Notes under the pieces: model-generated
Databases searched by the model: none
Told to the model about the DNA's origin: nothing
Seen by the model: only the letters and a program-made list of their open reading frames with translations
Program-made: the position numbers and the translations under genes
Shown: positions 23,641 through 60,120 of the stretch, in pieces
How the letters are laid out: each line of letters opens with the position of its first letter
How positions within the stretch are numbered: position 1 is the first letter of the stretch
DNA from: Streptomyces formicae
GTDB lineage: Bacteria; Actinomycetota; Actinomycetes; Streptomycetales; Streptomycetaceae
Assembly (NCBI RefSeq): GCF_002556545.1
Contig: NZ_CP022685.1
Location: forward strand, 8,348,001 to 8,412,000
Length of the DNA stretch: 64,000 nt
Direction: 5' to 3'

Positions 23641-23652
23641 TGGACCTGACTG

Positions 23653-23667
23653 GGGACCAGTTGGCCC
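23653..23667. promoter_or_regulatory. DosR/OsdR-like box upstream of a universal stress gene
   Basis: GGGACCAGTTGGCCC, with half-sites GGGAC and GGCCC and a five-base spacer, 53 bp upstream of the start at 23720. The right half continues as GGCCCCTG, as in the other boxes of this island. It also contains the unit GGGGACCAGTTGG found tandemly at 19745, so an integrase-arm origin is an alternative reading. Confidence 0.4.
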
Positions 23668-23719
23668 CTGCGCGATTCCGGCGTGCGGCGTAAAGCTGGT
23701 GGCACAGGAGGTGGGAACG

Positions 23720-31650: not shown

Positions 31651-31691
31651 GCTACTCAGGCCCACCTCTTCACCACGTGCCGATTCCGTGA

Positions 31692-31706
31692 GGGACGTTA
31701 GGGCCC
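31692..31706. promoter_or_regulatory. DosR/OsdR-like box upstream of a universal stress gene
   Basis: GGGACGTTAGGGCCC (half-sites GGGAC and GGCCC, five-base spacer), followed by a further CGGCCCCTGCGCG nearer the gene that matches the promoter-side sequence of the USP at 23720. It lies 90 bp upstream of the start at 31796. Confidence 0.4.
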
Positions 31707-31795
31707 TTCTTCGGCCCATCCGGCCCCTGCGCGTACCGGACGGCGTGGCCGACCGTGGATTCCGGGGCTCCTGCTCTGCGCGGAGGTGAACTGCT

Positions 31796-39757: not shown

Positions 39758-39828
39758 CCCGGCCCGAACAGCCTGCGGAGGCACAGGTCGAGCAGAACGT
39801 GGAGGCTCCTGGACAGTCGCACATCACC

Positions 39829-43792: not shown

Positions 43793-43892
43793 GGCCAAGC
43801 CCGCCTCCGGGATTCGCACGTTCCTGTCCCGCAATGACATTACGGAGGAATCCTGCGCCGGGAACCGGGCCGTGCGCGTCCTGGCGTGCTGT

Positions 43893-43906
43893 GGGCCGGA
43901 CGTCCC
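43893..43906. promoter_or_regulatory. DosR/OsdR-like box between ppk2 and the GAPDH operon
   Basis: GGGCCGGACGTCCC fits the pattern GGG(A/C)C-N4-G(T/G)CCC. It lies 101 bp before the ppk2 start and 133 bp before the GAPDH start, so one site can serve both divergent units. Confidence 0.5.
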
Positions 43907-44038
43907 TGGGAGTGCCCCGGTCGGCCCATGTCCCACGTGGCCAGGCGGTGGCAGCGTGACACGCAGTGCGCCCGGAGGCTTCGCGGTCGACGCGCGGGCC
44001 GTGGGGCGCAACCCGCCTGCCAGGAAAGGGAGTCGCTC

Positions 44039-45049
44039 ATGACCGTCCGTGTCGGGATCAATGGATTCGGCCGTATCGGCCGCAACTGCCTGCGTGCCGC
44101 GCTGGAGAGGTCCGGCGACGGCGCCGTCGACGTGGTCGCGGTCAACGACGTCGCGCCGACGGCGACTCTGGCGCATCTGCTGGAATACGACTCGACGTAC
44201 GGCAGGCTGCACCGCGACATCTCCCACGACGAGGCATCGATCACCGTGGACGGCAGGCGCATCGCCGTCTCGGCGGAGCGCGACCCCGCCGCCCTGGACT
44301 GGGGAGGACACCGAGTCGACATCGTGATCGAGTCCACCGGCCGCTTCCGTGACCGGGACGCCGCCGCGCTCCACATCAAGGGGGGCGCGCGCAAGGTGCT
44401 GCTCTCGGCGCCGGGCAAGGGCGCCGACGCGACCATCGTGATGGGCGTCAACCAGGACGTGTACGAACCGGACCGGCACCAGGTGGTCTCGGCCGCCTCC
44501 TGCACCACCAACTGCGTCGTGCCGATGGTGAGCGTCCTGCACGAGAGCTTCGGCATCACCAAGGGCCTCATGACCACCATCCACGGCTACACCAACGACC
44601 AGGCGCTCATCGATGGCCCGCACAAGGATCTGCGCCGGGCCCGCTCGGCGGCCCTCAGCATCATCCCGACCAGCACCGGCGCCGCCCGGGCCGTGGGGCT
44701 TGTCGTCCCCGAACTCGACGGGGCGCTGGACGGCTCGGCCCTCCGCGTGCCGGTGGAGGACGGTTCGCTCACCGACCTCACGGTGCTGCTTCGCCGTGAG
44801 GCCACTGCGGAGGAGGTCAACGCCGCGTTCGCGGAGGCGGCGGACGGTCGCCTGCGGGGCTTCCTGCGGGTGTCGCGTGCCCCGATCGTCTCCCGTGACG
44901 TCATCGGCGACCCGGCCTCCTGCGTCTTCGACCCGGCCCTCACCCAGTCGCACGGGGACCTGGTCAAGGTCTTCGGCTGGTACGACAACGAATGGGCCTA
45001 TTGCCAGCGGCTGTTGGACCTCACTGTTCACGTCGCGGGACGCCTGTGA
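44039..45049 (+). CDS. gap: glyceraldehyde-3-phosphate dehydrogenase
   Basis: 336-aa tetrameric NAD-type GAPDH. The cofactor loop is GINGFGRIGRNCLRAAL, the catalytic cysteine lies in SAASCTTNCV, and the phosphate sites include TSTGAARAVG and the C-terminal WYDNEWAYCQR. The ATG at 44039 follows AAAGGGAG. It overlaps the next gene by one base (TGATG). Its place in a sugar phosphorolysis operon suggests a stress-specific paralog that feeds lower glycolysis when oxygen is scarce. Confidence 0.95.
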   Translation: MTVRVGINGFGRIGRNCLRAALERSGDGAVDVVAVNDVAPTATLAHLLEYDSTYGRLHRDISHDEASITVDGRRIAVSAERDPAALDWGGHRVDIVIESTGRFRDRDAAALHIKGGARKVLLSAPGKGADATIVMGVNQDVYEPDRHQVVSAASCTTNCVVPMVSVLHESFGITKGLMTTIHGYTNDQALIDGPHKDLRRARSAALSIIPTSTGAARAVGLVVPELDGALDGSALRVPVEDGSLTDLTVLLRREATAEEVNAAFAEAADGRLRGFLRVSRAPIVSRDVIGDPASCVFDPALTQSHGDLVKVFGWYDNEWAYCQRLLDLTVHVAGRL

Positions 45050-45786
45050 TGATTCCCGCCGCTCTCGCCGGTGTGCGAGGCGTCGTGCTCGACACCGACG
45101 GGGTGATCACCGACTCGGCGCGGGTGCACGCCGAGGCGTGGAAGCGGGCCTTCGACGTCTTCCTCGCCGAGCATCCGCCCGAATCGCCCCGGCAGCGGCG
45201 GCCGTTCGACGTGCGCCAGGACTACTTGCGGTACGTCGACGGCAAATCGCGCCTCGACGGAGCCGCCTCTTTCCTCGCCTCGCGTGGGCTGCGGCCGGTC
45301 GTCCGGGACGTCGAGGCCGTGGCAGCCGAGAAGGAGCGGCTGTTCGCCGAGCGGCTGAGCAAGGGCGGCATCGACGCCTACCCCGGAACCGTGCGCCTCC
45401 TGAAGGCCCTGCGTGAACACGAAATCCCGCTGGCGGCGGCCTCCGCCTCCCGGCACGCCCGTGAAATCCTCACGAACGCGGGCGTGTTGGAGCTCTTCGA
45501 CGCTCTCGTGGACGGTGAGGTGGCGGCTCGCCTCGGCCTCGCGGGCAAGCCGGACCCCGCGCTCTTCCTGGAAGCGGCGCGGCGCCTTCGTGTGACGCCG
45601 ACGGAGGCTGCTGTCATCGAGGACGCGCTGGCGGGTGTCGAGGCGGGCCGGCGCGGTGGGTTCCGTGTCGTGATCGGCGTGGACAGGAACGCGACGGACA
45701 GCACGAGGGCGGCTCTGCTGCGACACGGCGCGGACACGGTGGTGGACGACCTCGGCGCGCTGCTGGCCGAAGGCGGAAGGCCATGA
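45049..45786 (+). CDS. beta-phosphoglucomutase, HAD superfamily
   Basis: 245-aa HAD enzyme converting beta-glucose 1-phosphate to glucose 6-phosphate. Motif I is VLDTDGVITD (D15, D17), motif II the serine in AAASASRHAR, and motif IV AVIEDALAGVEAG. The cap domain is the PGM type. It is translationally coupled to gap (TGATG) and to the GH65 gene (ATGA), the gene whose product it consumes. Confidence 0.92.
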   Translation: MIPAALAGVRGVVLDTDGVITDSARVHAEAWKRAFDVFLAEHPPESPRQRRPFDVRQDYLRYVDGKSRLDGAASFLASRGLRPVVRDVEAVAAEKERLFAERLSKGGIDAYPGTVRLLKALREHEIPLAAASASRHAREILTNAGVLELFDALVDGEVAARLGLAGKPDPALFLEAARRLRVTPTEAAVIEDALAGVEAGRRGGFRVVIGVDRNATDSTRAALLRHGADTVVDDLGALLAEGGRP

Positions 45787-48188
45787 AGGAGCGGATCGAC
45801 GACTGGACCTGGGAGTACGACGGCTTCGACCCGGCGGACGAACGGCTTCGGGAATCCCTGTGCACCCTGGGCAACGGATACTTCGCCACTCGGGGGGCCG
45901 CACCCGAGTGCCCGGCCGACGACGTGCACTATCCGGGGACGTACGCGGCGGGCTGCTACAACCGGCTGACCTCACACATCGCGGACCGGCAGGTGGAGAA
46001 CGAGGACGTGGTCAACCTGCCCGACTGGCTGCCCCTGCGCTACCGGCTGAAAGAAGGGCAAGAGGAAGGCGAAGGGCAGTGGCTCACCCCGGACCGCGGC
46101 GCGCTCGTCGCCCTGCGGCAGTCCCTGGACCTGCGGTCCGGCATCCTGGAGCGCGATCTCCGGTACGAGGTCGGGCACGGGCGCGTGCTGCGGGTGCGCC
46201 AACTGCGTCTCGTGCACATGGCCGACCCTCATCTCGCGGCACTGCACACCCGCTTCAGCGTCGAGGGGCCGCCGGTCGTGCTGGAGGTCGAGGCGGCACT
46301 CGACGGGACCGTGACCAACGCGGGTGTGCCGCGCTACCGGCAACTGAACTCCACCCACCTCACCCACGTCCACACCGGAACCGGTGACGCGGCCGACACC
46401 GTGTGGCTGCGATGCCGCACCACGACGTCCGACGTCCGGGTGGGGCTGGCCGCCCGGACGACGGCGGGCTCCGCCCCGGCCGTGACGCGGCACGACGGGG
46501 GCCGGGCTGTCCAGCTCTTCGAAATCACCCTTGAAGCCGGGCGCACCGCCACCGTCGACAAGACCGTCGCCCTGCACACCTCCCGCGACCCGGCGATCAG
46601 TGACCCCCTGCGGGCCGCCGTCGACCGTGTCGCCGGGGCACCCGGGTTCGACGAGCTCCTCGACTCGCACATCACCGCGTGGGACCAGCTGTGGCGCAGG
46701 GCCGAACTCGACGTGCCCGGCGAGGCGGGCCGCATCCTGCGGCTGCACCACTTCCACGTCCTGCAGACGCTGTCGCCGCACACCGCCGATCTCGACGTCG
46801 GCGTGCCCGCTCGCGGGCTGCACGGAGAGGCGTACCGAGGCCATGTCTTCTGGGACGAACTCTTCGTCCTGCCCTACCTCAATCTGCATTTTCCCGAGGT
46901 GTCCCGGGCGCTTCTCACCTACCGCCACCGCCGTCTGGAGCGGGCGTGCGCGGCGGCCCGCGACGTGGGCAGGGCGGGTGCGATGTACCCGTGGCAGAGC
47001 GGTAGCGACGGACGGGAGGAGACCCAGGAGCTCCATCTCAACCCGCGCTCGGGGCGCTGGCTGCAGGACCACTCCCGTCTCCAGCGTCATGTGGGATCGG
47101 CTGTCGCGTACAACGTGTGGCGGTACTGCGAGGCCAGTGGTGACGCCGAGTTCCTGCACACCAAGGGCGCTGAGATGCTCCTGCAGATCGCCCGCTTCTG
47201 GGCCGACTCGGCGACGTACGACGAGAGCCTCGGTCGGCATCGCATCCGCGGCGTCGTCGGGCCCGACGAGTACCACGACGCCTACCCGGGAGCCGTGGCT
47301 CCAGGGCTTGACGACAACGCCTACACGAACGTCACGGCGGCCTGGGTGCTCGCCCGCGCCCTGGACGTCCTGCGGACCCTGCCCGAACCGCGCAGGCGGG
47401 AGCTGGTGGAACGGATCGGTCTCGACGGCGGAGAGGTCGAAGCGTGGGAGGACGTCTCCCACACCCTTCACGTGCCGTTCCACGACGGGGTGATCAGCCA
47501 GTTCGAGGGATACGGAGACCTCGCGGAACTGGACTGGGACGGCTATCGCGCCCGCTACGGTGACATCCGCCGTCTGGACCGGATCCTGGAGGCCGAAAAC
47601 GACACGGTCAATCGCTATCAGGCGTCCAAGCAGGCCGATGCCCTGATGCTCGGCTACCTCTTCTCCCCGGCCGAACTGGGCGGCCTCTTCGCCCGGTTGG
47701 GCTACTCGCTTGACGCGGACACCTGGCAGCGCACCGTCGACCACTATCTGCGCCGCACCAGCCACGGCTCCACGCTCAGTGGTCTCGTGCACGGCTGGGT
47801 CCTGGCCAGAGTGCGGCGCGCGGGAGCCTGGAAGTTCGTGCGGGAGGCGCTGGAGGGAGACATCGCCGACCTGCAAGGCGGCACCACGGGGGAGGGCATC
47901 CACCTCGGCGCCATGGCAGGGACGCTCGACCTCGTGCAACGGGGCCTCACCGGCCTGGAGACCCGGGGCGGCGCACTGTGGCTCGACCCGGTGCCGCTGC
48001 CGGAACTCTCCGAGTACGGTTTCGCCCTTCGCTACCGGGGGCACTGGGGCGTACGGCTCCGGATGCGGCCCGGCATGCTGCACATCGGCGTCCCCTCGTC
48101 GGACCGCTCGCCGATCGGCATCGAGCTGCCCGGCAGGGCCGTTTCCGTCGAGCCGGGGGAGTCGTGTGATCTGACGCTGCCCGAGTGA
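45783..48188 (+). CDS. GH65 disaccharide phosphorylase (trehalose/maltose/kojibiose type)
   Basis: 801-aa glycoside hydrolase family 65 phosphorylase. It splits a glucosyl disaccharide with phosphate to beta-glucose 1-phosphate and glucose. Three family parts are visible: an N-terminal beta-sandwich (YDGFDPADERLRESLCTLGN), an (alpha/alpha)6 barrel with the catalytic acid E496 in VVGPDEYHD and QASKQADALMLGYLF, and a C-terminal sandwich. The phosphate site includes RRTSHGSTLS. Trehalose is the most plausible substrate in Streptomyces, but kojibiose or maltose cannot be excluded. The product is passed to the neighbouring mutase. Confidence 0.93.
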   Translation: MKERIDDWTWEYDGFDPADERLRESLCTLGNGYFATRGAAPECPADDVHYPGTYAAGCYNRLTSHIADRQVENEDVVNLPDWLPLRYRLKEGQEEGEGQWLTPDRGALVALRQSLDLRSGILERDLRYEVGHGRVLRVRQLRLVHMADPHLAALHTRFSVEGPPVVLEVEAALDGTVTNAGVPRYRQLNSTHLTHVHTGTGDAADTVWLRCRTTTSDVRVGLAARTTAGSAPAVTRHDGGRAVQLFEITLEAGRTATVDKTVALHTSRDPAISDPLRAAVDRVAGAPGFDELLDSHITAWDQLWRRAELDVPGEAGRILRLHHFHVLQTLSPHTADLDVGVPARGLHGEAYRGHVFWDELFVLPYLNLHFPEVSRALLTYRHRRLERACAAARDVGRAGAMYPWQSGSDGREETQELHLNPRSGRWLQDHSRLQRHVGSAVAYNVWRYCEASGDAEFLHTKGAEMLLQIARFWADSATYDESLGRHRIRGVVGPDEYHDAYPGAVAPGLDDNAYTNVTAAWVLARALDVLRTLPEPRRRELVERIGLDGGEVEAWEDVSHTLHVPFHDGVISQFEGYGDLAELDWDGYRARYGDIRRLDRILEAENDTVNRYQASKQADALMLGYLFSPAELGGLFARLGYSLDADTWQRTVDHYLRRTSHGSTLSGLVHGWVLARVRRAGAWKFVREALEGDIADLQGGTTGEGIHLGAMAGTLDLVQRGLTGLETRGGALWLDPVPLPELSEYGFALRYRGHWGVRLRMRPGMLHIGVPSSDRSPIGIELPGRAVSVEPGESCDLTLPE

Positions 48189-48193
48189 CGGGG

Positions 48194-48210
48194 CGAGGAA
48201 CGGTTCCTCG
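48194..48210. promoter_or_regulatory. 17-bp perfect inverted repeat before the Hsp20 gene
   Basis: CGAGGAAC-G-GTTCCTCG lies six bases after the GH65 stop. The single centre base makes an RNA hairpin unlikely, so a protein-binding site is possible; it is 190 bp upstream of the Hsp20 start. Confidence 0.35.
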
Positions 48211-48399
48211 GGGAAGCGGCGTCGATTCCGGTGTCCGTGGCGGAGCGGGCTTCTTCTCTCTTGCCCCGGTGCTGGTCGTGCCCCTCGCCGGGCAGGGCCG
48301 ACCGGGCAAGAGGGGGACCCGGACGGCCCTCGCCGGTGCCGCGTGGCGGCGCGATGCTGGGAATTGAGGAAGCGGGGAGATGGGACGAGGGAGGGTGAG

Positions 48400-48825
48400 A
48401 TGAGCAGCATGATCAACAGGCTCCCGAACTGGCCGCAGGGGCTGCCGGACGTGTTCGGCTGGATCGAGGGCGGCATTCCGGGGCTTCACCCGACACCCGG
48501 GGTGCATGGGATTCGGATCGAGGAGTCGTGCACGGACGGGGTGTACTCGCTGCGTGCCGAACTTCCCGGTGTCGACCCCGACAAGGACATCGACATCACG
48601 GTGACGGAAGGCGTCCTGACGCTGTGCGCCGAGCGCAGCGCCGGAACAGCGGGCGACCGCCACTCGGAGTTCCGCTACGGCACCTTCGCGCGCGCCGTCC
48701 GGCTGCCCTCCGGCGCACGCGGAGACGAGGCGACCGCAGAGTACGAGGGCGGCGTCCTGACCATCACGGTCCCGGTGCCGGAAGGGAAGCACGCCACCAG
48801 GACTATCCCGGTGCGGCACACCTGA
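48400..48825 (+). CDS. Hsp20 / alpha-crystallin small heat-shock protein
   Basis: 141-aa small heat-shock protein with an alpha-crystallin domain at about residues 38-128 (IRIEESCTDGVYSLRAELPG, then EFRYGTFARAVRLPSG and YEGGVLTITVPVPEG). It is an ATP-independent holdase. It resembles HspX/Acr, the hallmark of the DosR regulon in Mycobacterium tuberculosis. The ATG at 48400 follows GAGGGTGAG. It is convergent with a USP gene. The upstream 200 bp contain GC-rich dyads but no well-spaced box. Confidence 0.92.
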   Translation: MSSMINRLPNWPQGLPDVFGWIEGGIPGLHPTPGVHGIRIEESCTDGVYSLRAELPGVDPDKDIDITVTEGVLTLCAERSAGTAGDRHSEFRYGTFARAVRLPSGARGDEATAEYEGGVLTITVPVPEGKHATRTIPVRHT

Positions 48826-48923
48826 GCGCGATACGCGCCGGCCGCACACGCCCGCGCGACCCAGTCGGGCAGGTCGCGCGGGCCTTCCACGCGTGCACGT
48901 CGCCTTCGGCGTGGTGGGGCCCG

Positions 48924-49772
48924 TCAGTTGTGCGGAACGATCGCGACCGGGCACCCGGCGCGGTGGATCGCCGCGTGCGCGGTCGATCCGAGATGCTCCC
49001 CGGCAGGGACACGGCGGCCGACGACGAGCAGGTCGGCATCCTTGGCGGCCTGCAACACGTGGTGGCCCGTGAGGCCGCGGACGAGGCGTTCAGTGACCTG
49101 TACCCCCGGGAACTTGTGTTTCCAGGGGGTGAGCGTGGCCGCGAGGAGCCGGGATTTCGCCACGGAGGGGTCGGTGGTGTCGGCGGTGGGGACCAGGGGG
49201 ATCGTCCACGTGTGCACGGCGTGCAGCGGTGCCTGACGGGTGGTTGCCGCGACGAAGGCGAATTCCAGGAGTTCGTCACAGGGACGATCGAGGTCGAGGC
49301 CGAGCACGACGGGGCGGGGGCGGTCCGGTGCCCGGCGCCTGTCGTCCGGGCGCTCGCCCGCCCGTACTAGGACGACCGGGCAGGTGGCCTGTGCCGCGAC
49401 CGCGAGGGCCACCGAGCCGACCAGTGCCCCGGTCAGCGCGCCGAAGCCGCGTGAGCCGAGCACGAGCAGGGCCGAGGATTCCGCCGCCGCCAGCAGGGCC
49501 CGCACCGGTGGTTCGATGACCTGCTCCTCGACGATTCCGAGGTCGGGGTGGATGTCGGAGAGGTGCAGGACCGCATGGTTGAGCGCGTCGCTCTCGCGGT
49601 GGAAGGGGACGTCGACCTCCGGGAGGCGGGTCTGCACCGACGGTTGGTCGTAGGCGTGAATGAGGTGCAGGGGCAGATCGCGCCGCAGTGCCTCGTAGCC
49701 CGCCCAAGCGGCGGCGGCCAGGCTCTCGGGAGAGCCGTCGATGCCTGCGGTGACGGTGAGCTGTTCGTTCAT
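48924..49772 (-). CDS. universal stress protein, two tandem USP domains
   Basis: 282 aa. Domain one opens TVTAGIDGSPESLAAAAWAG and has the ATP loop GSRGFGALTGALVGS; domain two opens RPVVLGLDLDRPCDELLEFA and ends HRAGCPVAIVPHN with a partial loop. It starts at ATG 49772 and reads toward the Hsp20 gene. A truncated USP relic lies just upstream. The hydrogenase maturation genes diverge about 375 bp away. Confidence 0.93.
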   Translation of the reverse strand: MNEQLTVTAGIDGSPESLAAAAWAGYEALRRDLPLHLIHAYDQPSVQTRLPEVDVPFHRESDALNHAVLHLSDIHPDLGIVEEQVIEPPVRALLAAAESSALLVLGSRGFGALTGALVGSVALAVAAQATCPVVLVRAGERPDDRRRAPDRPRPVVLGLDLDRPCDELLEFAFVAATTRQAPLHAVHTWTIPLVPTADTTDPSVAKSRLLAATLTPWKHKFPGVQVTERLVRGLTGHHVLQAAKDADLLVVGRRVPAGEHLGSTAHAAIHRAGCPVAIVPHN

Positions 49773-49892
49773 GGCGGGCTCCTCTGGGGCACGGTCGGTG
49801 AGGCGCCGTCAGCCGGTCCACGTCCAGTTGGCGACTTCCGGCAGGTCGGTGCCGTGGGCGGATCCAGGAGCGGTGGCGGGTGCGGGCGCCGG

Positions 49893-50030
49893 TCATCGTC
49901 TGGCGTACTGCACGGAGGGCTGGTTGATGCCGAAGAACGGTTCGTGCCCCTCGTGCCACTCCCACCTGGAGGCGTGCACGACACGCAGCGGCACTCCGTA
50001 CGCCGCGGCCTCGTCCTGGGACCGTTTCAT
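49893..50030 (-). pseudogene. universal stress protein relic
   Basis: 45 codons reading KRSQDEAAAYGVPLRVVHAS RWEWHE, the end of the first helix and the second strand of a USP, then a stop after QPSVQYARR. The nucleotide-binding loop and the rest are missing. Confidence 0.6.
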
Positions 50031-50070
50031 CGAGGAGGCCGTCGGGGGAGGGGCGAACCGGCCCCGGTGA

Positions 50071-50084
50071 GGGACATTCGGCCC
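50071..50084. promoter_or_regulatory. DosR/OsdR-like box upstream of the hydrogenase maturation genes
   Basis: GGGACATTCGGCCC fits GGG(A/C)C-N4-G(T/G)CCC and continues as GGCCCCTG. It lies 65 bp before the protease start at 50149, a normal position for an activator box. Confidence 0.55.
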
Positions 50085-50148
50085 CTGTCGCCGCCTCGAC
50101 GGCCCGCGCACAGTGGCGGCACGGCACGGCACGGCGGAAGGAGACGGA

Positions 50149-50658
50149 ATGCCCTCCCGGACGCGTATCGCGGTGATCGGTGTCGGTAACGAGTTCCGGC
50201 GGGACGACGGCGTCGGCTGGGCGGTGATCGCCCGGCTCCGTGAGCGGGCCGCCGACCGTCCGCTGCCGCCTGGGACGGTCCTTGCCACCTGCGACGGCGA
50301 CCCCGCCCGGCTGATCGGCTTGTGGGAGGGCACGCAACTGGCGGTGGTCGTGGACGCCGCGCACGCCCACCCCGGCCACCCGGGCCGTGTGCACCGGCTC
50401 ACGCTGGACGCCGACGCCCTGGAGCGGCCGCGTACGGCCAGTTCGCACGGGCTCGGGCTCGGGGAGGCCGTCGAACTCGCCCGGGTGCTTGGCAGGTTGC
50501 CGGGCCGACTGGTCGTGTACGCGGTCGAGGGCGCCGACACCGCGCTGGGCACCGGCCTTTCGGCGGGCGTCGAGGCAGTGGTGGCTCCGCTCGCCGCAGG
50601 CGTCGAGGACGAGATCGTGCGGCACCGGGACGCCGCCGCGCGCGGCAGAGAGGGGTAG
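50149..50658 (+). CDS. [NiFe]-hydrogenase maturation endopeptidase
   Basis: 169-aa HyaD/HycI-type protease that trims the C-terminus of the hydrogenase large subunit after nickel insertion. The metal-sensing residues lie in GVGNEFRRDDGVGWAV and AVVVDAAHAHPG, with a third histidine in TASSHGLGLGEAVELA. The ATG at 50149 follows GAAGGAGA. Its target should be the alpha subunit at 60873, which ends with a nine-residue extension after DPCISCSTH. It is two bases before hypF. Confidence 0.9.
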   Translation: MPSRTRIAVIGVGNEFRRDDGVGWAVIARLRERAADRPLPPGTVLATCDGDPARLIGLWEGTQLAVVVDAAHAHPGHPGRVHRLTLDADALERPRTASSHGLGLGEAVELARVLGRLPGRLVVYAVEGADTALGTGLSAGVEAVVAPLAAGVEDEIVRHRDAAARGREG

Positions 50659-50660
50659 CC

Positions 50661-52955
50661 ATGCCGGAGCGCAGCGCACTCCGCTTCGAAGTGTTCGGCA
50701 CTGTGCAGGGAGTGGGCTTCCGCCCCTTCGTGCACCGGCTCGCGTCCGGACTCGGCCTGGACGGGTGGGCCGCCAACACCGACGGCCATGTGGAGGGCGA
50801 GGTGGCCGGGACGCCGTACGCCGTCCGGGAGTTCACCGGCCGGTTGCGCTCCGGTGCGCCCGCCATGGCCCGGGTGCGGCAGGTGCGGTTGACCGCCGTG
50901 AACGGCCAACTCCCGCCCGTCGCTTCCGGATTCACCATCCGGAGCAGCGACGCCGGGCGTGCGGCGCCGCGAGGCCCCCGGGAGGTGCCGCCCGACGCCG
51001 CGATCTGTACCGCCTGCCTGAGTGAACTCCTGGACCCGGGCGACCGCCGCTTCCGCTACCCGTTCATCAACTGCACCGACTGCGGACCGCGCGCCACCGT
51101 CATCGAAGACCTTCCCTACGACCGGATCCGCACCACGATGAGGCGCTTCCCGCTCTGCGCCGCCTGCGCGGCCGAGTACGGCGACCCTGGCGACCGGCGT
51201 TTCCACGCCGAGCCGCTCGCCTGCCCCGCCTGCGGGCCGCGGCTCTCCTGGGACGCGCTGAGAGGGGAAGCCGCGCTGCGCGCCGCGGTCAAGACCGTGG
51301 AGAGCGGGGGCATCGTCGCGCTGAAGGGCCTCGGCGGCTATCAACTGGTGTGCGACGCCACCGACCCGACCGCGGTCGAGTCGCTGCGGGAGCGCAAGCG
51401 CCGCCCCGCCAAGCCGTTCGCCGTCATGGTCCAGGACCTGCAAGCGGCAGGGGAGTTGGCGCACATGTCGGGCACGGAGCGGGCCGTCCTGCTGTCGGTC
51501 ACACGTCCCGTGGTGCTGCTCGACGCCCACGGCCCTGGCCTCGCGCCCGCCGTTCATCCCGGCACCCACCGCATCGGCCTTTTCCTGCCCACGACCGGAC
51601 TGCACCACCTCCTGGCCCGTGAACTCGCCGGGCCGCTCGTCGTCACCAGCGGCAACCTCGCCGACTGCCCCATCGCCACCGACGACGCGGAGGCCCGCCG
51701 CACGCTGGGCACGGTCGCCGACGGTTTCCTCGTCCACGACCGGCCGATCCGTGCCCGCTACGACGACTCGGTCGTCCAGGTCACCGGCCGGTCCGTGCGC
51801 ACGCTCCGCAGGGCGCGCGGTCTGGCCCCGGCGCCGTTGCCGCTGGCCCCGGCCGCCCCCGAGCCACTGGTGGCGGTCGGCGCCCAGCTGAAGCACACCT
51901 TCACCCTCGGGGACCGGAGCGGCGCCCACCTCTCCCCGCACGGCGGTGACCTGTCGGACGCGACCGCGCTGGACGCCTTCACGCGTGCCTACGAGGATCT
52001 CGTCCGGCTCACCGGCATCGTCCCGGAGGTCGTCGCGCACGACCCGCATCCGGGCTACCGCTCCACCCAGTGGGCGCTGGCCCGGGCACTGCGCCGCATC
52101 GAGGTGCAGCACCACCACGCCCACGTCGCGGCGTGCGCGGCCGAGCACGGGCTGCGCACGCCGTTCATCGGAGTCGCCTACGACGGTCTGGGGCTCGGCG
52201 ACGACGGGACGCTGTGGGGCGGGGAGGTCCTCGTCGCTGATCTGACCGGCTACCGGCGTGTGGGACGTTTCGCGACCGCGCCGCTGCCGGGCGGTGAGGC
52301 AGCGGTCCGTCACCCGTACCGGATGGCGCTCGGCTACCTCCACGGCGCGGAGCTGCTCGGGAGCCCACGGCCGTACCCCTGGCTGACCAGGACCTTCACC
52401 GAGCGGCTCGATCCGTCCGAAGCCGCCGTGGTGCGCGCCATGGTGGCGCGGGGCATCAACTCCCCGCGCGCTTCGAGCGCCGGACGGCTCTTCGACGCCG
52501 TGGCGAGCCTGCTGGGCCTCGGAGACTCGGTGAGCTTCGAGGGTGAAGCCGCCGTGGCCCTGGAGGAGGCGGCGGGCACCGTGCCCGCCCTGCCCTTGGA
52601 CCACCGCCTGGCGCGGGTCGACGGGCTGTGGGTGTACGACCCGGCCCCGACCCTGATGGACCTCCTGGGCAGGCAGCACAGCGGCGAGGGCGTCCCCGCG
52701 CTCGCCGCGGCCTTCCACCTGACGCTCGCCCGCGTGACCGCCGAACTCGTCGCACACGCCGTCGAGGACGGCGCGCCGCGCACCGTCTGTCTCGCGGGCG
52801 GCTGTTTCCTCAATCGCCGACTGCTCACCGAGGTCACCGCGCGACTCCATGCTCAAGGACTGCGCGTGCTGGTCGGCGAGGCCGTACCGGTCGGCGACGG
52901 CGGCATCAGCTACGGGCAGGCGGCGGTCGCCGCCGCCCGGCTCGCGAAGGGGTGA
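50661..52955 (+). CDS. hypF: carbamoyltransferase HypF
   Basis: 764 aa, full length. It activates carbamoyl phosphate and passes the carbamoyl group to HypE for cyanide-ligand synthesis. Domains in order: acylphosphatase (FGTVQGVGFRPFVHRLA), two zinc fingers (CTACLSELLDPGDRRF with CTDCGPR, and CAACAAEYGDPGDRRF with CPACGPR), YrdC-like domain (GGIVALKGLGGYQLVCDA) and Kae1-like domain (HHHAHVAACAAEHG and GGCFLNRRLL). All catalytic blocks are visible. The start ATG at 50661 follows AGGGG. hypC follows at six bases. Confidence 0.96.
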   Translation: MPERSALRFEVFGTVQGVGFRPFVHRLASGLGLDGWAANTDGHVEGEVAGTPYAVREFTGRLRSGAPAMARVRQVRLTAVNGQLPPVASGFTIRSSDAGRAAPRGPREVPPDAAICTACLSELLDPGDRRFRYPFINCTDCGPRATVIEDLPYDRIRTTMRRFPLCAACAAEYGDPGDRRFHAEPLACPACGPRLSWDALRGEAALRAAVKTVESGGIVALKGLGGYQLVCDATDPTAVESLRERKRRPAKPFAVMVQDLQAAGELAHMSGTERAVLLSVTRPVVLLDAHGPGLAPAVHPGTHRIGLFLPTTGLHHLLARELAGPLVVTSGNLADCPIATDDAEARRTLGTVADGFLVHDRPIRARYDDSVVQVTGRSVRTLRRARGLAPAPLPLAPAAPEPLVAVGAQLKHTFTLGDRSGAHLSPHGGDLSDATALDAFTRAYEDLVRLTGIVPEVVAHDPHPGYRSTQWALARALRRIEVQHHHAHVAACAAEHGLRTPFIGVAYDGLGLGDDGTLWGGEVLVADLTGYRRVGRFATAPLPGGEAAVRHPYRMALGYLHGAELLGSPRPYPWLTRTFTERLDPSEAAVVRAMVARGINSPRASSAGRLFDAVASLLGLGDSVSFEGEAAVALEEAAGTVPALPLDHRLARVDGLWVYDPAPTLMDLLGRQHSGEGVPALAAAFHLTLARVTAELVAHAVEDGAPRTVCLAGGCFLNRRLLTEVTARLHAQGLRVLVGEAVPVGDGGISYGQAAVAAARLAKG

Positions 52956-52960
52956 GCGCG

Positions 52961-53230
52961 ATGTGTCTGGGAATCCCCGGTCGGGTCATCGAGGTCAGGG
53001 ACGACTCCGGTCTGCGCATGGCCACCGTCGACTTCGGCGGGGTACGCCGCGAGGTCTGCCTCGCCTACACGCCGAAGGCGTCGGTCGGCACGTACGTCGT
53101 CGTGCACGTCGGATTCGCCATCACCGAGGTCGACGAGGCCGAGGCCGAGCGGACCCTGGACGTCTTGCGGGCCATGGCAGGGGCAGTGGAGGCCGAACTC
53201 GGCGAGCCGCTGCCCGGCCCGAGCACATAG
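52961..53230 (+). CDS. hypC: hydrogenase assembly chaperone HypC
   Basis: 89-aa HypC/HupF chaperone. The N-terminal cysteine motif MCLGIPGRVIEV is intact (Cys2 is essential), so the ATG at 52961 is the true start; GTG at 52952 would bury it. The body has the OB-fold VDFGGVRREVCLAYTPKASV and GFAITEVDEAEA. It binds the large subunit precursor and HypD. Confidence 0.95.
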   Translation: MCLGIPGRVIEVRDDSGLRMATVDFGGVRREVCLAYTPKASVGTYVVVHVGFAITEVDEAEAERTLDVLRAMAGAVEAELGEPLPGPST

Positions 53231-53243
53231 GGCCGGTCGGCCC
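53230..53243. promoter_or_regulatory. DosR/OsdR-like box before the acyl-CoA synthetase
   Basis: GGGCCGGTCGGCCC fits GGG(A/C)C-N4-G(T/G)CCC and overlaps the hypC stop by one base, 85 bp before the start at 53328. Confidence 0.55.
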
Positions 53244-53327
53244 TGGTCGAGCACCCGGCCAGCCCCTGGGAGCGCACGGGCCCACGTCCGATGCTCAAAG
53301 GGCCAACCTGCCGACAGGAGGCTTGAG

Positions 53328-56021
53328 ATGACGAACGACGAGCGCAGCCGGCCACCGGTCCACGCCTTGCTCGCCGACGGGACGACCATCTGCATACGGA
53401 GCGCCCGGCCCGATGACCACGCACAACTGCGGTGCCTGTACGAGGAGATGTCACCGGAGAATCTCCGACTGAGGTTCTTCGTCGCGAGCCGTCGATCCGC
53501 CGAGCAGGCCGCCGACCGGGCCTGTGCGGCTCCGCGCGCCGGATATCTCGCGCTGCTGGCCGAGACCAAGGGCCAGATCATCGGCCTGGCCGAGTACGAG
53601 AGCGCGGACGATCCCGCTGATGCCGAGATCTCGCTCGCGGTCGCCGACGACCTCCACCACCGGGGGATCGGCACGCTGCTCCTTGAACATCTGGTCTCCG
53701 CCGCTCGCGCCGACGGCATCGCTACGTTCACCGCCGACGCGCTCGCCGAGAACCGCGAGGTGCTGAAGATCTTCGCCGACCTCGGACTGCGCACCGCGCG
53801 CCACTTCGAAGGACCCGAGCTGCGCTACAGCATCCAGTTGGCGGAGGATGAGACCTACCTGACCGCGGTCGAGGCGCGCGGCCTGACGGCGGACGTGGCG
53901 AGCCTGGAGCCGTTGCTGAGGCCCAGCTCGATCGCCGTGGTCGGAGCGGGCCGCAGGGCCGGTTCCGTCGGCCGCGCCGTGCTGCGCAATCTGCGCACCG
54001 GCGGCTTCACCCGGCAGCTCTTCGCCGTCAACCCGAACGTGTCCTCGCTGATGAGCGTGCCCGCCTACCCTTCGGTCTCCGCGTTGCCCAGGGTTCCCGA
54101 CCTCGCGGTCCTCGCGGTGCCCGCCGCAGTCCTGCCGGAGACGGCCGAGGAGTGCGGCAAAGCGGGCGTGCGCGCGCTCGTGGTGGTCACGGCCGGACTG
54201 GACGCCACGGAGGCCGGGGCCCTTTTGGCCACCTGCCGCAGGCACGGCATGCGGCTGGTCGGCCCGAACTGCCTCGGCATCGCCAACACCGACACGAAGC
54301 TGTCGCTGGACTCGACCTTCGCCGCCCGGCACCCGCGCCGCGGCACGACCGGTATCGCCGTGCAGTCCGGGGGAGTCGGGATCGCCCTGCTCGACGGCCT
54401 GACCCGGCTCGGTCTCGGCGTCTCCAGCTTCGTCTCGCTCGGCGACAAGTACGACGTCAGCGGCAACGACCTGCTCCAGTGGTGGGAGTCCGACGGCGTC
54501 ACCGACCTGGCCCTGCTGCACCTGGAGTCCTTCGGGAACCCACGGGCCTTCTCCCGCACCGCTCGGCGTGTGTCCCGGCGCATGCCGGTGCTCACCGTCG
54601 ACGCGGGGCGCACCGAGGCCGGTCGACGAGCGGCCGCCTCGCACACCTCCGCGGCCGCCACGCGGACCATGACCCGACAGGCCCTGTTCACCCAGGCGGG
54701 CATCACCGCGACCGGCTCCGTCGGTGAACTCCTCGCCGCGGCTGCCCTGTTGCACTCCCAGCCCCTGCCCGCCGGAAACCGGGTCGCCATCGTCACCAAC
54801 GCGGGTGGTGCGGGAGTCCTCGCGGCGGACGCGTGTGCCGAGGCCGGACTCGTCATGCCGTCGCTCCCGGCCGAAGTCATCGACGACCTGCTCGACCGGC
54901 TGCCCGAGGGCGCTTCGCCCGTCAACCCGGTCGATGCCACCGCCGCCGTCACCGAGGCACAGCTCAAGAGCTGTGTCGACCGGCTCGTGCGGCACGGGGG
55001 CATCGACGCCGTCCTGGTGGTGCTCGTGCCCACCGCGGTCGCCACGGCGACCGGCGAGGACCTCGTCAGGGCACTCACCGACATCCCGGGCCGCCGCCCG
55101 CGGACGGTCGCCGTGGTCCGCCTCGATCAGGCACTGCCCGTCCGACTGCTGCCGACCAAGGGCGACGGAACCATCCCTTCCTACGCCGATCCGCAGACAG
55201 CGGCGGGGGCTCTGGCCCATGCCGTGCGACGGGCCCGCTGGCTGGCTCGTCCCCCCGGCGCGGTCCAGAACCTGCCCGACGTGGAGACGCGACGCGCCCA
55301 CGAGGTGGCCGAAACCTGGCTGGCAGGACATCCCGAAGGCGGCTGGCTGGACCCGCGCGCCTGCGCCGAGCTGCTCGGCTGCTACGGCATCCCACAACTG
55401 CCGTGGGCCTGGGCCGAGTCCGAGGACGAGGCGGTCAGGGCCGCCGAGCTGCTGCGCGGCCCTGACGGCCGCGTCGTACTGAAAGCGCACTGGCCCGGCC
55501 TGCTGCACAAGAGCGAGCAGCACGCCATCCACCTCGACCTGCGCGGAGACAGCCAAGTACGCGCCGCCTTCCGGGACGTGGCAACCCGGTTCGCCGGACT
55601 GCTCACCGGAGTGGTGATCCAGCCGCTCGCCGAGCGCGGCACCGAACTGTTCGCGGGCGTCGTCCAGGACGAGGTCTTCGGGCCGCTGGTCCTTTTCGGG
55701 CTCGGCGGCACCGCCACGGAGGTGCTCGCGGACCACGCGGCCCGCCTGGCCCCCCTCACCGACCTCGACGTCCACGACCTGATCACCGCACCGCGCTGCG
55801 CACCGCTCCTCTTCGGACACGGCGGCAGCGGCCCGGTGGACCTCGAACGCCTGGAGCAACTCCTGCACAGGCTTTCCCGGATGGCCTGCGACCTGCCACA
55901 GCTCGCCGAGGCCGACTTCAACCCCGTCCTGGCACGGCCGGGCGGTATCACGGCGCTCGACGCGCGGGTGCGACTGCTGCCCCGGCCCGCCCAGGACCGG
56001 TACCTGCGCCGACTGCGCTGA
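53328..56021 (+). CDS. GNAT-fused ADP-forming acyl-CoA synthetase (Pat type II-like)
   Basis: 897 aa. Residues about 15-165 are a GNAT acetyltransferase (RSARPDDHAQLRCLYEEMSP, HHRGIGTLLLEHLV). Residues about 190-500 are the CoA-binding/ligase part (SSIAVVGAGRRAGSVGRAVL) and residues about 670-890 the ATP-grasp part. The phosphohistidine equivalent H439 in AASHTSAAA is kept, unlike Pat enzymes that lost it, so both ADP-forming acyl-CoA hydrolysis and protein acetylation are possible. N-terminal GNAT order is that of Streptomyces PatA. It can make ATP from acetyl-CoA in hypoxia or regulate enzymes by lysine acetylation. Confidence 0.9.
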   Translation: MTNDERSRPPVHALLADGTTICIRSARPDDHAQLRCLYEEMSPENLRLRFFVASRRSAEQAADRACAAPRAGYLALLAETKGQIIGLAEYESADDPADAEISLAVADDLHHRGIGTLLLEHLVSAARADGIATFTADALAENREVLKIFADLGLRTARHFEGPELRYSIQLAEDETYLTAVEARGLTADVASLEPLLRPSSIAVVGAGRRAGSVGRAVLRNLRTGGFTRQLFAVNPNVSSLMSVPAYPSVSALPRVPDLAVLAVPAAVLPETAEECGKAGVRALVVVTAGLDATEAGALLATCRRHGMRLVGPNCLGIANTDTKLSLDSTFAARHPRRGTTGIAVQSGGVGIALLDGLTRLGLGVSSFVSLGDKYDVSGNDLLQWWESDGVTDLALLHLESFGNPRAFSRTARRVSRRMPVLTVDAGRTEAGRRAAASHTSAAATRTMTRQALFTQAGITATGSVGELLAAAALLHSQPLPAGNRVAIVTNAGGAGVLAADACAEAGLVMPSLPAEVIDDLLDRLPEGASPVNPVDATAAVTEAQLKSCVDRLVRHGGIDAVLVVLVPTAVATATGEDLVRALTDIPGRRPRTVAVVRLDQALPVRLLPTKGDGTIPSYADPQTAAGALAHAVRRARWLARPPGAVQNLPDVETRRAHEVAETWLAGHPEGGWLDPRACAELLGCYGIPQLPWAWAESEDEAVRAAELLRGPDGRVVLKAHWPGLLHKSEQHAIHLDLRGDSQVRAAFRDVATRFAGLLTGVVIQPLAERGTELFAGVVQDEVFGPLVLFGLGGTATEVLADHAARLAPLTDLDVHDLITAPRCAPLLFGHGGSGPVDLERLEQLLHRLSRMACDLPQLAEADFNPVLARPGGITALDARVRLLPRPAQDRYLRRLR

Positions 56022-56034
56022 GGAGGAGACAGAG

Positions 56035-56766
56035 ATGAAGCACAGCAAGATCGGTTCCGTGATGACCAGTGAGGTGGTCAGCGCCCGGTACGGCACCCCG
56101 TTCAAGGAGGTGGCCAGGCTCCTGGACACGCACCGCATCAGCGGGCTGCCGGTGATCGACGCCGACGACAAGGTGATCGGGGTGGTCTCGGAGACGGACC
56201 TGCTGGTGCGCGAGGCCGAGGCTCCCGCCCCCGAGCAGCCGCCCCGTCGCTTCCGGCTCCGCAGGAAGCACCCCGTCGCGCGCAAGGACCGCTCCAAGGC
56301 CACGGCACGCACGGCAGGACAGCTGATGTCCCGGCCCCCGGTCTGTGTCCACTCAGGGAAGAGCATCGCAGAGGGGGCCCGCCGGATGGCCCAGCACCGG
56401 GTGGAGCGGCTGCCCGTCATCGACGACGAGGACCGCCTGGTCGGCATCGTCACCCGGCGCGACCTGCTCCAGGTCTTCCTGCGCCCGGACGACGGCATCC
56501 GTCACGAGGTGATCGAACAGGTCCTGGTCCAGGCCCTGTGGCTGGCACCACAGACCATTGACGTCCAGGTACGGGACGGCGTGGTGACCCTCGACGGGCA
56601 GGTGGAGCGCCGCAGCGAGGTGCCCATCGCGCTGCACATGACGCGTGAGATCGACGGGGTCGTCGCGGTGGTCGACAAGCTCACCTACCGCGTGGACGAC
56701 TCCCACCTCCAGCCGAGTGACCAGGCCCTGCGGGGCGTGGCCGACGACTGGCTGCGCAAACTCTGA
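56035..56766 (+). CDS. CBS-pair plus BON domain protein
   Basis: 243 aa. Two CBS motifs (MTSEVVSARYGTPFKEVARL with GLPVIDADDKVIGVVSETDL, and MSRPPVCVHSGKSIAEGARR with RLPVIDDEDRLVGIVTRRDL) are split by a basic linker (RRFRLRRKHPVARKDRSKAT). The C-terminal 70 residues are a BON domain (VRDGVVTLDGQVERRSEVPI). CBS pairs sense adenine nucleotides; BON domains bind membranes or partners. It follows the synthetase by 13 bp and precedes the flavodoxin. CBS proteins such as Hrp1 are DosR-regulon members. Confidence 0.9.
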   Translation: MKHSKIGSVMTSEVVSARYGTPFKEVARLLDTHRISGLPVIDADDKVIGVVSETDLLVREAEAPAPEQPPRRFRLRRKHPVARKDRSKATARTAGQLMSRPPVCVHSGKSIAEGARRMAQHRVERLPVIDDEDRLVGIVTRRDLLQVFLRPDDGIRHEVIEQVLVQALWLAPQTIDVQVRDGVVTLDGQVERRSEVPIALHMTREIDGVVAVVDKLTYRVDDSHLQPSDQALRGVADDWLRKL

Positions 56767-56782
56767 GGAGGGCTCGATCACC

Positions 56783-57301
56783 ATGACCATCAAGGTGCTC
56801 GTCGCCTACGCGACGAAGAACTGGTCCACGGCGGAGATCGCCCGCACCATCACGGAGGTCCTCCACAAGGAGGGCCTGGCCCCCGACATGCGGCTGGTCT
56901 CCGAAGTCGGAGACCTCCAGGCGTACGACGCCGTCGTGCTCGGCAGCCCGCTCTACGAGAACCGCTGGCACAAGAACGCCCGCCGGTTCCTCAACCGCAA
57001 TGCCCAGGCCCTGGCCGCACGGCCGGTGTGGCTGTTCAGCAGCGGGCCGCTCGACGCCTCGGCGAGCGAGCGCGACATCCCGCCGGTTCCCTTCGTGCGC
57101 AGGGCTCTCATCCGTGTCAACGCCAGGGAGCACGTCACCTTCGGCGGTTGCCTGGAGGAGGGTGCGAAGGGCCGTATCGCCCGAATGATCATCAAGTCCG
57201 GGAAGGGCGGCGACTACCGCGACTTCGCGCGGATCGCCGACTGGACGCGACACATCGGGGCCACGCTGAGGGACGAGTTCGCGGTGCGGGAGGGAACGTG
57301 A
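56783..57301 (+). CDS. flavodoxin domain protein
   Basis: 172-aa flavodoxin fold with the FMN loop VAYATKNWSTAEIARTI and second loop VVLGSPLYENRWHKNARRFL, similar to HemG-type flavodoxins and the gene at 24745. The full C-terminus (KGGDYRDFARIADWTRHIGA) shows what the other gene lost. It likely carries electrons or a protective flavin role in hypoxia. The ATG at 56783 lies 16 bp after the CBS gene and AGGAGGG precedes it. Confidence 0.9.
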   Translation: MTIKVLVAYATKNWSTAEIARTITEVLHKEGLAPDMRLVSEVGDLQAYDAVVLGSPLYENRWHKNARRFLNRNAQALAARPVWLFSSGPLDASASERDIPPVPFVRRALIRVNAREHVTFGGCLEEGAKGRIARMIIKSGKGGDYRDFARIADWTRHIGATLRDEFAVREGT

Positions 57302-57305
57302 CGTC

Positions 57306-57893
57306 ATGAACGCCCCGACGTGGCTCCGGGCTGTCGCGTGGCGATGGCGCAAGAGCCCCCTGCGTCGCCGCTGCGATGTCGTGGAGGCGTGGACCGTCCT
57401 ACTGCTGGGGGCCGCGATGGTGTTCGTCGCGCCCCTGGCCGGGGTGTTGGCCGGGGCCTTCGCCTACGACAGCGCGCATGCCGAGGCCGCACGGCAACGG
57501 GCCGACCGCCACGTCGTGCGCGCCACGCTCGTCGAGGACGCGCCACCGGCCGACAGCTTCGGCTCCCGGACCACTTACCCGGTCGAGGTGCGCTGGACCG
57601 GTCCCGGCGGCGCGGTGCACACGGCTGTCGCCCGGGTCGAGTCGGGCGCCACGGCGGGCAGCAGGACCGACGTCTGGCTCGACGCCCGCGGCAAGGGCAC
57701 CACTGCCCCGATGGGCGAGGACGTGCAGTGGGGCACCGCGATCGCCGTGGGAGGCGCGGGGAGCTTTGTGGTCTGGATGTCTGCCGGAGGCGTCTGGCTC
57801 ACCGTACGTGCGGTGACCCACCGGCGGCGGATGGCGGAGTGGGAGCGGGCATGGGCGCGAACGGGACCGCAGTGGACCGGGAGCCAGCGCTGA
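57306..57893 (+). CDS. Rv1733c-family membrane protein
   Basis: 195 aa. Two membrane segments (about residues 29-52 and 145-168) flank an extracellular loop with TYPVEVRWTGPGGAVHTAVA and RTDVWLDARGKGT. The basic N-terminus (WRWRKSPLRRRCDVVEAW) matches the Rv1733c family of the M. tuberculosis DosR regulon. The molecular role is unknown. It starts four bases after the flavodoxin stop and ends the block before the hydrogenase operon. Confidence 0.85.
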   Translation: MNAPTWLRAVAWRWRKSPLRRRCDVVEAWTVLLLGAAMVFVAPLAGVLAGAFAYDSAHAEAARQRADRHVVRATLVEDAPPADSFGSRTTYPVEVRWTGPGGAVHTAVARVESGATAGSRTDVWLDARGKGTTAPMGEDVQWGTAIAVGGAGSFVVWMSAGGVWLTVRAVTHRRRMAEWERAWARTGPQWTGSQR

Positions 57894-57922
57894 ACTGAAT
57901 TCGGTCCGGCAGGGCCCGAATA

Positions 57923-57936
57923 GGGCCGCTCGGCCC
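57923..57936. promoter_or_regulatory. DosR/OsdR-like box before the hydrogenase structural genes
   Basis: GGGCCGCTCGGCCC fits GGG(A/C)C-N4-G(T/G)CCC, perfect in both halves, and continues as GGCCCCTG. It lies 68 bp before the beta-subunit start at 58004. Confidence 0.6.
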
Positions 57937-58003
57937 CTGCCCCGCGGGCGGCGGTTCTTCGAGCCTGGTAGCAAGGCCCCACCCTCGATTCGGGAGGACG
58001 GAC

Positions 58004-59146: not shown

Positions 59147-59316
59147 GCAACGTCACGACCGTGCTGAGTGCCCTCCCCACCGAGCACCGCGACCGGCTGA
59201 TGCGGATCGCGCGCGAGGTGTCCTTCCCGGTCGGCACCCGGATCTTCGAGCAGGGCGGGCGCGCCGACCGGTTCTGGCTGTTCCCGCCCTGCGGCAGCGG
59301 GGGTGCGCGAGGATGA
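59143..59316 (+). pseudogene. relic of a cyclic-nucleotide-binding-domain gene
   Basis: 57 codons. The first 45 read VLSALPTEHRDRLMRIAREV and then FEQGGRADRFW, the start of a cNMP-binding domain common in group 3b operons. It then jumps to LFPPC and GSGGARG, apparently the later part and tail of the same protein. The start (ATGA) and stop (overlapping the gamma start) keep the operon's translational coupling. The remaining peptide cannot bind a nucleotide. Confidence 0.75.
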
Positions 59317-60119: not shown

Positions 60120-60120
60120 G

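Follow-up and report, generated by a model that had tools for sequence, protein, structure and literature searches.

We analysed a 64,000-bp window of the Streptomyces formicae chromosome (contig NZ_CP022685.1, positions 8,348,001 to 8,412,000) that holds an island of genes for a [NiFe] hydrogenase, which we take to be of group 3b, its maturation proteins, an acyl-CoA synthetase, sugar breakdown and universal stress proteins (USP). A first-pass annotation of this DNA had listed the palindrome GGG(A/C)C-N4-G(T/G)CCC at 43893, 50071, 53230 and 57923, and all four matches are found there; GGGAC-N4-GTCCC is the core of the DevR/DosR site. From the box ends to the start codons that we read at 44039, 50149, 53328 and 58004 there are 132, 64, 84 and 67 bases, in line with the 65-133 bp proposed earlier, and three of the four boxes run on into GGCCC(C)TG, as had also been noticed. 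The box at 43893 sits between divergent genes, since ppk2 lies on the minus strand. On our reading of the starts all four boxes are intergenic; a gene-calling script places three of the four between genes and calls the one at 43892 (16-bp numbering) genic because it extended gap too far upstream. It is highly likely that these palindromes are DevR/OsdR binding boxes for OsdR, a regulator encoded 1.1 kb beyond the window, and that they act through the promoter mechanism proposed below.

The number of matches carries little weight. It had been cautioned that GC-rich DNA yields some by chance, and indeed 2.03 are expected per window, with at least four in 13 of 100 shuffles. In the 9.61-Mb genome the bare pattern occurs 245 times, fewer than the 369 of a reversed control pattern. 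Thus, the count of four is uninformative, because shuffles equal it and the genome count falls below its control. For the stricter form DGGGMCGNNCGKCCCH the genome holds 13 matches (14 for its reversed control), and three of these 13 lie in this 14-kb stretch and one in a duplicate locus described below. What singles out the four sites is finer sequence together with position, so the earlier view that position outweighs number was sound. We scored the DNA with a matrix of the 25 S. coelicolor OsdR sites in Table 1 of Urem et al. 2016 (PMC5069765), which themselves score 11.6-19.0 bits on it. Across the 304 kb around and including the window, ranks one to four fall to 53229 (20.7 bits), 43892 (15.3), 50070 (14.8) and 57922 (14.5); the fifth, at 2028 (14.4 bits), lies within a gene. 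Control DNA, 800 kb taken at even spacing, has a single match that reaches 14.4 bits (14.7), again genic. The sections of Urem et al. 2016 (PMC5069765) on binding give AGGGCCGATCGGCCCT as the OsdR site of Streptomyces, bound, with mutants as controls, in electrophoretic mobility-shift assays. All four boxes are 16-bp palindromes fitting it (14.5-20.7 bits), which bears out the suspected resemblance to a DosR-type box. Judged from their sequence, they are very probably real regulatory sites.

Table 1. Boxes, predicted promoter elements and genes in and beside the window (window positions; L001:1 is the base after window position 64000).
Feature	Position	Strand	Remarks
USP gene (ATG 23720), two degenerate boxes about 20 bp apart before it	23632..23668	.	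Partner 5.3 bits, main box -3.7
Predicted -10 AAAGCT of USP gene 23720	23692	.	Predicted offset, score 3.8
Tandem boxes AGGGACGTTAGGGCCC (31691) and CGGCCCATCCGGCCCC (31712), 21 bp apart, before USP gene (31796)	31691..31727	.	11.2 and 7.7 bits
Predicted -10 GACCGT of USP gene 31796	31751	.	Predicted offset, score 5.6
ppk2, PPK2-domain gene, divergent from gap	43118..43792	-	PF03976, E 1.1e-101
OsdR-type box TGGGCCGGACGTCCCT, distal of pair, between ppk2 (-) and gap (+)	43892..43907	.	15.3 bits
Weak proximal partner TGCCCCGGTCGGCCCA, 21 bp downstream of the 43892 box	43913..43928	.	5.3 bits, best second score within 60 bp
Predicted -10 CAGCGT of gap promoter	43952..43957	+	Top-scoring offset (3.2) is the predicted one
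gap, type I glyceraldehyde-3-phosphate dehydrogenase; first gene of gap / HAD phosphatase / GH65	44039..45049	+	Pfam, NCBIfam; ATG checked, start chosen from family match
Tandem boxes 48294 and 48315, 21 bp apart, at Hsp20 gene	48294..48330	.	7.6 and 8.7 bits
Predicted -10 GATGCT at Hsp20 gene	48353	.	Score 6.9, predicted offset; in-frame ATGs 48400 and 48409 downstream
Distal partner box GGGGCGAACCGGCCCC	50050..50065	.	9.2 bits, 20 bp from main box 50070
OsdR-type box AGGGACATTCGGCCCC, upstream of protease/hypF/hypC operon	50070..50085	.	14.8 bits
Possible weak -10 CACAGT, at offset expected for a proximal box	50109..50114	+	Second-best score 0.2; best (1.2) at offset 40
Hydrogenase maturation protease, HycI/HybD-like	50149..50658	+	Family matches, start checked
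hypF, open reading frame as listed; true start probably further in	50322..52955	+	TIGR00143
Open reading frame with hypC as C-terminal part	52628..53230	+	PF01455 at residues 112-180; stop TAG overlaps next box
OsdR-type box AGGGCCGGTCGGCCCT, distal box of acyl-CoA ligase promoter	53229..53244	.	20.7 bits, top in 304 kb
Degenerate proximal partner GCACCCGGCCAGCCCC, downstream half retained	53251..53266	.	-2.2 bits, not the best-scoring neighbour of 53229
Predicted -10 GATGCT of acyl-CoA ligase promoter	53290..53295	+	Score 10.3, best of all offsets, +41 from distal box
ADP-forming-type acyl/acetyl-CoA synthetase (ligase), N-terminal GNAT domain	53328..56021	+	NCBIfam matches below model cut-offs
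OsdR-type box AGGGCCGCTCGGCCCC, proximal, upstream of hydrogenase operon	57922..57937	.	14.5 bits
Predicted -10 GAGCCT of hydrogenase promoter	57961..57966	+	Highest-scoring offset is +19 (6.6)
Group 3b-type [NiFe] hydrogenase	58004..62204	+	beta 58004-59146, gamma 58926-60119, delta 60121-60876, alpha 60873-62204
Box GGGGCCACTCGGCCCT upstream of osdR	L001:1029-1044 (65029)	.	10.6 bits, 85 bp before osdR
osdR, LuxR-type response regulator	L001:1114-1800 (65114-65800)	+	Sequence matches
osdK, GAF-GAF-histidine kinase	L001:1812-3533 (65812-67533)	-	Sequence matches

The boxes recur before the same genes in other bacteria. From 577 scan-confirmed loci we kept 80 around orthologous hydrogenase large subunits, and compared the 300 bp upstream of each gene with equal stretches of gene body; rows with less than 200 bp upstream, a match starting beyond residue 15 or identity below 40% were dropped, and genes here, as in the control DNA, were called by a simple GC-frame script that makes errors at starts. 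At 13 bits or more, a box lies upstream of the first hydrogenase gene in 21 of 78 cases, of the maturation protease in 12/62, of the acyl-CoA ligase in 14/19, of the USP gene in 10/18, of osdR in 4/10 and of a CBS-BON gene in 3/39, with none in any of the matching gene bodies (0/62 for the protease). For hypD, taken as operon-internal, neither the 31 upstream regions nor the gene bodies hold a box at this cut; for Hsp20 the filters left no orthologue (n = 0). Lowering it to 11 bits yields one gene-body match each for hydrogenase (1/78) and ligase (1/19), and none for the other genes. In the relatives, 37 of the 94 intergenic N4 sites are placed 75-100 bp ahead of the nearest start. Moreover, the four-base spacer is favoured in these loci: the N4 pattern occurs 28.6 times per 100 kb between genes and 6.7 times within them, and patterns with spacers other than four and five bases occur 2.1-6.7 times per 100 kb between genes.

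Most boxes come in pairs. In the relatives, 49 of 91 strong intergenic sites have their best second site (within 60 bp) at a distance of 20-22 bp, where 5.2 are expected; in the control DNA of the genome itself such a partner accompanies one of 35 genic sites and none of eight intergenic ones. Because the relatives are not mutually independent, binomial p-values for this test and for the -10 offsets below are too small. In the window the best partners stand at -20 (50070), +21 (31691), +21 (43892), +21 (48294) and -20 (23652); the partner of 57922, at -20, is very weak, and that of 53229, at +22, is degenerate; a similar half-site is seen in the relatives' ligase promoters. At 34028 and 65029 we found no partner at 20-22 bp. 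This tandem arrangement, with a weaker partner box 20-22 bp away, appears to be a new addition to the known OsdR site.

A second element follows the boxes at fixed spacing. When the 55 bp behind them were searched for motifs, GGCGGACGCTGGAG emerged with a log-likelihood of 121.5, against at most 47.9 in 12 shuffles that were run with fewer restarts than the real data. Of 39 promoters, 25 carry the motif 17-20 bp after the box and 11 carry it at 39-41 bp, two classes that differ by one tandem step. When 33 promoters are aligned on it, the base right after the box is T in 73%, which is where the TTG of a -35 element would fall, about 18 bp before [G/C]ANNNT (the invariant A and T of the motif itself, 33/33, are biased by filtering on motif score). 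The CGGCCC(C)TG continuation is thereby explained: the tail after the box falls where the -35 belongs. A matrix trained on 14 hydrogenase promoters was applied to 25 others, and in 21 of them its best match falls on one of the allowed offsets (ligase 7/8, USP 6/6, osdR 2/4, protease 6/7), where chance would give 17%; this test is not fully blind, as the allowed offsets came from a search that included the other promoters. Left out of the promoter sets were those whose best box scores below 13 bits, those with a start distance out of range and near-duplicates of more than 65% identity. In and beside the window eight of 11 box-and-direction cases fit the rule, six clearly and two weakly, and control boxes fit it in 18 of 88, equal to the chance prediction. 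A simple TANNNT scan gave two matches in 50 promoters, nearly empty because the first base of the -10 is mostly G or C. For ppk2 and the minus-strand USP gene (49772) the best offsets fall off the predicted places, so that we find no sign of the same -10 rule serving them. The close second site and the -35 overlap can thus be read from the DNA, with very weak partners at 53229 and 57922 and none at 65029, and the -10-like [G/C]ANNNT at fixed spacing appears to be a new promoter layout.

Could four chance matches in GC-rich DNA simply happen to sit upstream of genes? The shuffles that equal the count, the 245 genomic matches and the strong sites within open reading frames (ORFs) elsewhere would allow it. 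Such an accident, however, would not explain the ranking by an independent matrix, the conservation in orthologous promoters with zero gene-body matches at 13 bits, nor the spacer, tandem and -10 geometry. Ranking, conservation and geometry refute chance for the four sites taken together, and we hold it to be extremely improbable.

Alternatively, the palindromes could be terminator or attenuator hairpins with 5-bp GC stems and four-nucleotide loops. GGGCC-N4-GGCCC is able to fold, and listed ORFs stop at 50070, 53230 and 57893, so that three of the four boxes come directly, or 29 bp, after a stop. The relatives speak otherwise. Of 101 strong intergenic sites there, five lie at edges; among the remaining 96, as many as 31 fall between divergent genes, neither of which needs a terminator, and only four between convergent ones, and in 21 the arms are unable to pair at the fourth base. 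Several relatives keep the ligase box about 100 bp before the start though the ligase does not stand behind hypF/hypC, and the fixed-spacing -10 would have no role. Terminator hairpins are largely ruled out by gene orientation and non-pairing arms, and this account strikes us as very improbable.

The reading as OsdR boxes has the further merit that the regulator is at hand. The annotation had predicted a two-component regulator outside the window, and an osdR/osdK pair is indeed found 1.1-3.5 kb past its right end. The best solved relative of this NarL-family OsdR is DevR (251 bits), followed by VraR (154 bits). By our count along the alignment it keeps EKTVKN, which contains the residues aligned to DosR K179, K182 and N183; these we take to be DNA contacts (K182 also appears in the title of a reference). 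Among solved structures, the closest to the first, putatively haem-binding GAF domain of OsdK are 2vzw (by its listing a probable histidine kinase, presumably DosT) and the DevS GAF domain. OsdK His139 and Tyr161 align, again by our count, with DevS His149 and Tyr171, which we assume to be the proximal haem ligand and the distal tyrosine.

Another NarL/LuxR-family regulator with a similar site might instead read the boxes, OsdR being a mere neighbour. Recognition helices are, we presume, common to the family, at 4.73 Mb the minus strand (G000:C1:4728324-4729235) carries a third GAF-GAF locus besides the two OsdK copies, similar to them in size with an open frame of 611 codons, and OsdK is described as also partnering with SCO3818 (Urem et al. 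2016, PMC5069765). Against this, the box fits the consensus that was worked out for OsdR on osdR's own promoters, precedes osdR here and follows osdR into the duplicate locus. We regard a different reader as unlikely.

If OsdR is the reader, the following sequence of events can be envisioned. Low oxygen would empty the haem of OsdK, which would then phosphorylate OsdR. OsdR dimers would occupy two boxes set 20-22 bp apart and facing the same side of the helix. Of the two, the downstream one reaches to the -35 position and is followed at fixed spacing by [G/C]ANNNT; if this is the -10, OsdR would be centred near -43.5 and -64.5, as expected of an activator in contact with RNA polymerase. The housekeeping polymerase may thus be recruited to promoters whose own -35 and -10 are poor. 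Together, sugar breakdown with glyceraldehyde-3-phosphate dehydrogenase (GAPDH), the ATP-yielding acyl-CoA synthetase, the group 3b-type hydrogenase and its maturation genes, the stress proteins and osdR itself would be switched on.

Several observations weigh against this reading. Boxes of 18.4 (5884319), 17.2 (1958657) and 15.5 bits (387708) lie within script-called ORFs, in stretches chosen for a strict-pattern match or nearness to one; a strong single box is therefore no proof alone. In 800 kb outside the island, matches of at least 11 bits are 22 genic and 4 intergenic (702 and 98 kb, respectively), which is no promoter enrichment. The annotation had let its reading stand or fall on hits being commoner in promoters than inside genes: they do concentrate upstream of genes in the island and its orthologous promoters, but not in the 800 kb elsewhere. 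Nor is the N4 pattern enriched between genes in the genome's own control DNA (3.3 against 2.2), where it is no commoner than other spacers. Tandem partners also accompany strong script-genic sites of the relatives (22/62, or 20/127 at a looser cut), probably because starts were called too far upstream. Three of the 11 box-and-direction cases fail the -10 rule, and protease and osdR fit it weakly at offset 40 where 19 is expected. At 13 bits 57 of the 78 hydrogenase orthologues have no box, and among mycobacterial and rhodococcal hydrogenase loci a box within 300 bp is found in none of 12, even when one mismatch is allowed (gene bodies 1/12). Finally, the signal of OsdR is stated to remain to be confirmed (Urem et al. 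2016, PMC5069765), and low oxygen as the signal here is our inference.

The boxes at 5884319 and 1958657 (G000:C1) lie within or at the start of called ORFs, and OsdR binding or a mis-called start are both possible.

The docking site itself is known; what appears to be added here is its role at these genes and the detailed layout of the promoters. The S. coelicolor OsdKR system (PMC5069765), as far as its published sites go, resembles the island in the consensus, the 16-bp palindrome, a box at about -80 of osdR and the USP and stress genes around osdR; its site table, unlike the island, holds no hydrogenase, hyp, acyl-CoA ligase or gap-GH65 promoter. The text of that article (PMC5069765) does not contain the word 'tandem', and yet its table pairs SCO0517 sites at -248/-268, 20 bp apart, the spacing of the island. 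There, osdR and osdK are described as an operon, whereas here they are convergent and present in two genome copies. For S. lividans, gap3 and USP genes are reported to be co-expressed with OsdR. Mycobacterium tuberculosis DevR/DosR, in the part of its promoter work used here (PMC3029386), likewise shows closely packed boxes, a proximal box over the -35 and a strong site aiding a weak neighbour; in contrast, the island's sites are richer in G+C (GGGCC arms), its -10 is [G/C]ANNNT and its gene set is another. The nearest hydrogenase parallel is M. smegmatis, whose DosR regulon is described as including Hyd3, said to make H2 in fermentation (PMC2799521, PMC5430705): a low-oxygen-induced [NiFe] hydrogenase in a cluster beside devR, with two devR copies. 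The box was nevertheless absent within 300 bp from all 12 mycobacterial and rhodococcal loci examined, a set that does not include M. smegmatis; the link between hydrogenase and regulator may therefore have a separate origin or different wiring. In the literature searched, with subscription journals mostly outside it, no link between OsdR and a hydrogenase was found, and the link looks unreported there; the two words come together in a paper on spinach and in another whose single mention is of NADH hydrogenase.

What could such a regulon do? The four hydrogenase subunits form an alpha-beta-gamma-delta set closest to sulfhydrogenase: the best solved relative of alpha is Sulfhydrogenase 1 alpha, and the NCBIfam ShyA/HydA-type matches are below the cut-offs of those models. 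It is plausible that the island provides an H2- and acetate-forming route of survival without oxygen. More tentatively, and with rather less than even confidence, we envision a self-contained fermentation module switched by oxygen. One regulator, in two near-identical copies, would govern the use of polyphosphate, the phosphorolytic breakdown of sugars, GAPDH, acetate formation with ATP yield and the evolution of H2. It would act through a single rigid promoter grammar: two OsdR boxes 20-22 bp apart, the second abutting the -35, and then, about 18 bp on, [G/C]ANNNT. If so, a Streptomyces regarded as strictly aerobic would be able to maintain its redox and energy balance in the absence of oxygen, and across the genome the grammar should predict OsdR-dependent promoters better than does the box on its own. 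Hydrogenase, maturation genes and ATP-yielding acyl-CoA synthetase would be tied to the low-oxygen switch that controls mycobacterial dormancy. The grammar of tandem boxes plus -10 would also give a more exact criterion, open to testing, for telling which weak boxes matter, and this is of use because a single box is not promoter-enriched outside the island.

Looser forms with a five-base spacer had been reported at 23653, 31692 and 34029, and they do exist. Those at 23653 (CAGTT) and 31692 (GTTAG), though, are better described as one-mismatch N4 boxes. In the relatives the N5 pattern is enriched between genes (34 sites, 10.4 per 100 kb), but 29 of these 34 are one-mismatch N4 boxes in shifted register (C first or G last in the spacer), a class that takes in 24 of 45 genic N5 sites; a five-base spacer as a second form was therefore rejected. 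The site at 34029 (spacer GAACA) is outside the shifted class and has neither partner box nor -10, and single weak sites like it may be chance.

A second osdR lies 0.46 Mb away, at 8.87 Mb, with 227 of 228 residues identical; its osdK is identical in 544 of 573 columns. The locus (G000:C1:8870000-8876200; L013:8382-14192) is a collinear but gutted copy of the island. Identity is 99.1% over the 2448 bp of osdRK and mostly 87-96% over scattered other pieces, and because the former is far above the latter, gene conversion or selection on osdRK is suggested. About 0.19 kb from inside the hydrogenase operon is all that is kept of it, the structural hydrogenase genes being largely lost, and no DNA match to the ligase or most of hypF was found in the 50 kb compared. 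The boxes matching 50070, 57922 and 65029 are kept, at L013:9341, 10344 and 11759. Near the other chromosome end (141-143 kb; L016:9088-10875), a USP gene is divergent from a TM_HPP gene, and the 13.7-bit box between them (L016:10017) is a likely OsdR target far from the island.

Within the window, a phage-type integrase (19804-21072, minus strand) marks the left edge of the USP/hydrogenase region and insertion-sequence transposases lie inside it (25813-26730 and 37307-38989), which are signs of a mobile or patched island. Between 26985 and 30857, two ketoacyl-synthase-type genes flank a fatty-acid desaturase, and no box of at least 9 bits is listed there. A 172-residue ORF (32655-33173, plus strand) gives a short, sub-threshold nitroreductase match and is perhaps a remnant. 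The island also encodes, at 38968-42648 on the plus strand, a 1226-residue NB-ARC/TPR protein of STAND-type architecture.

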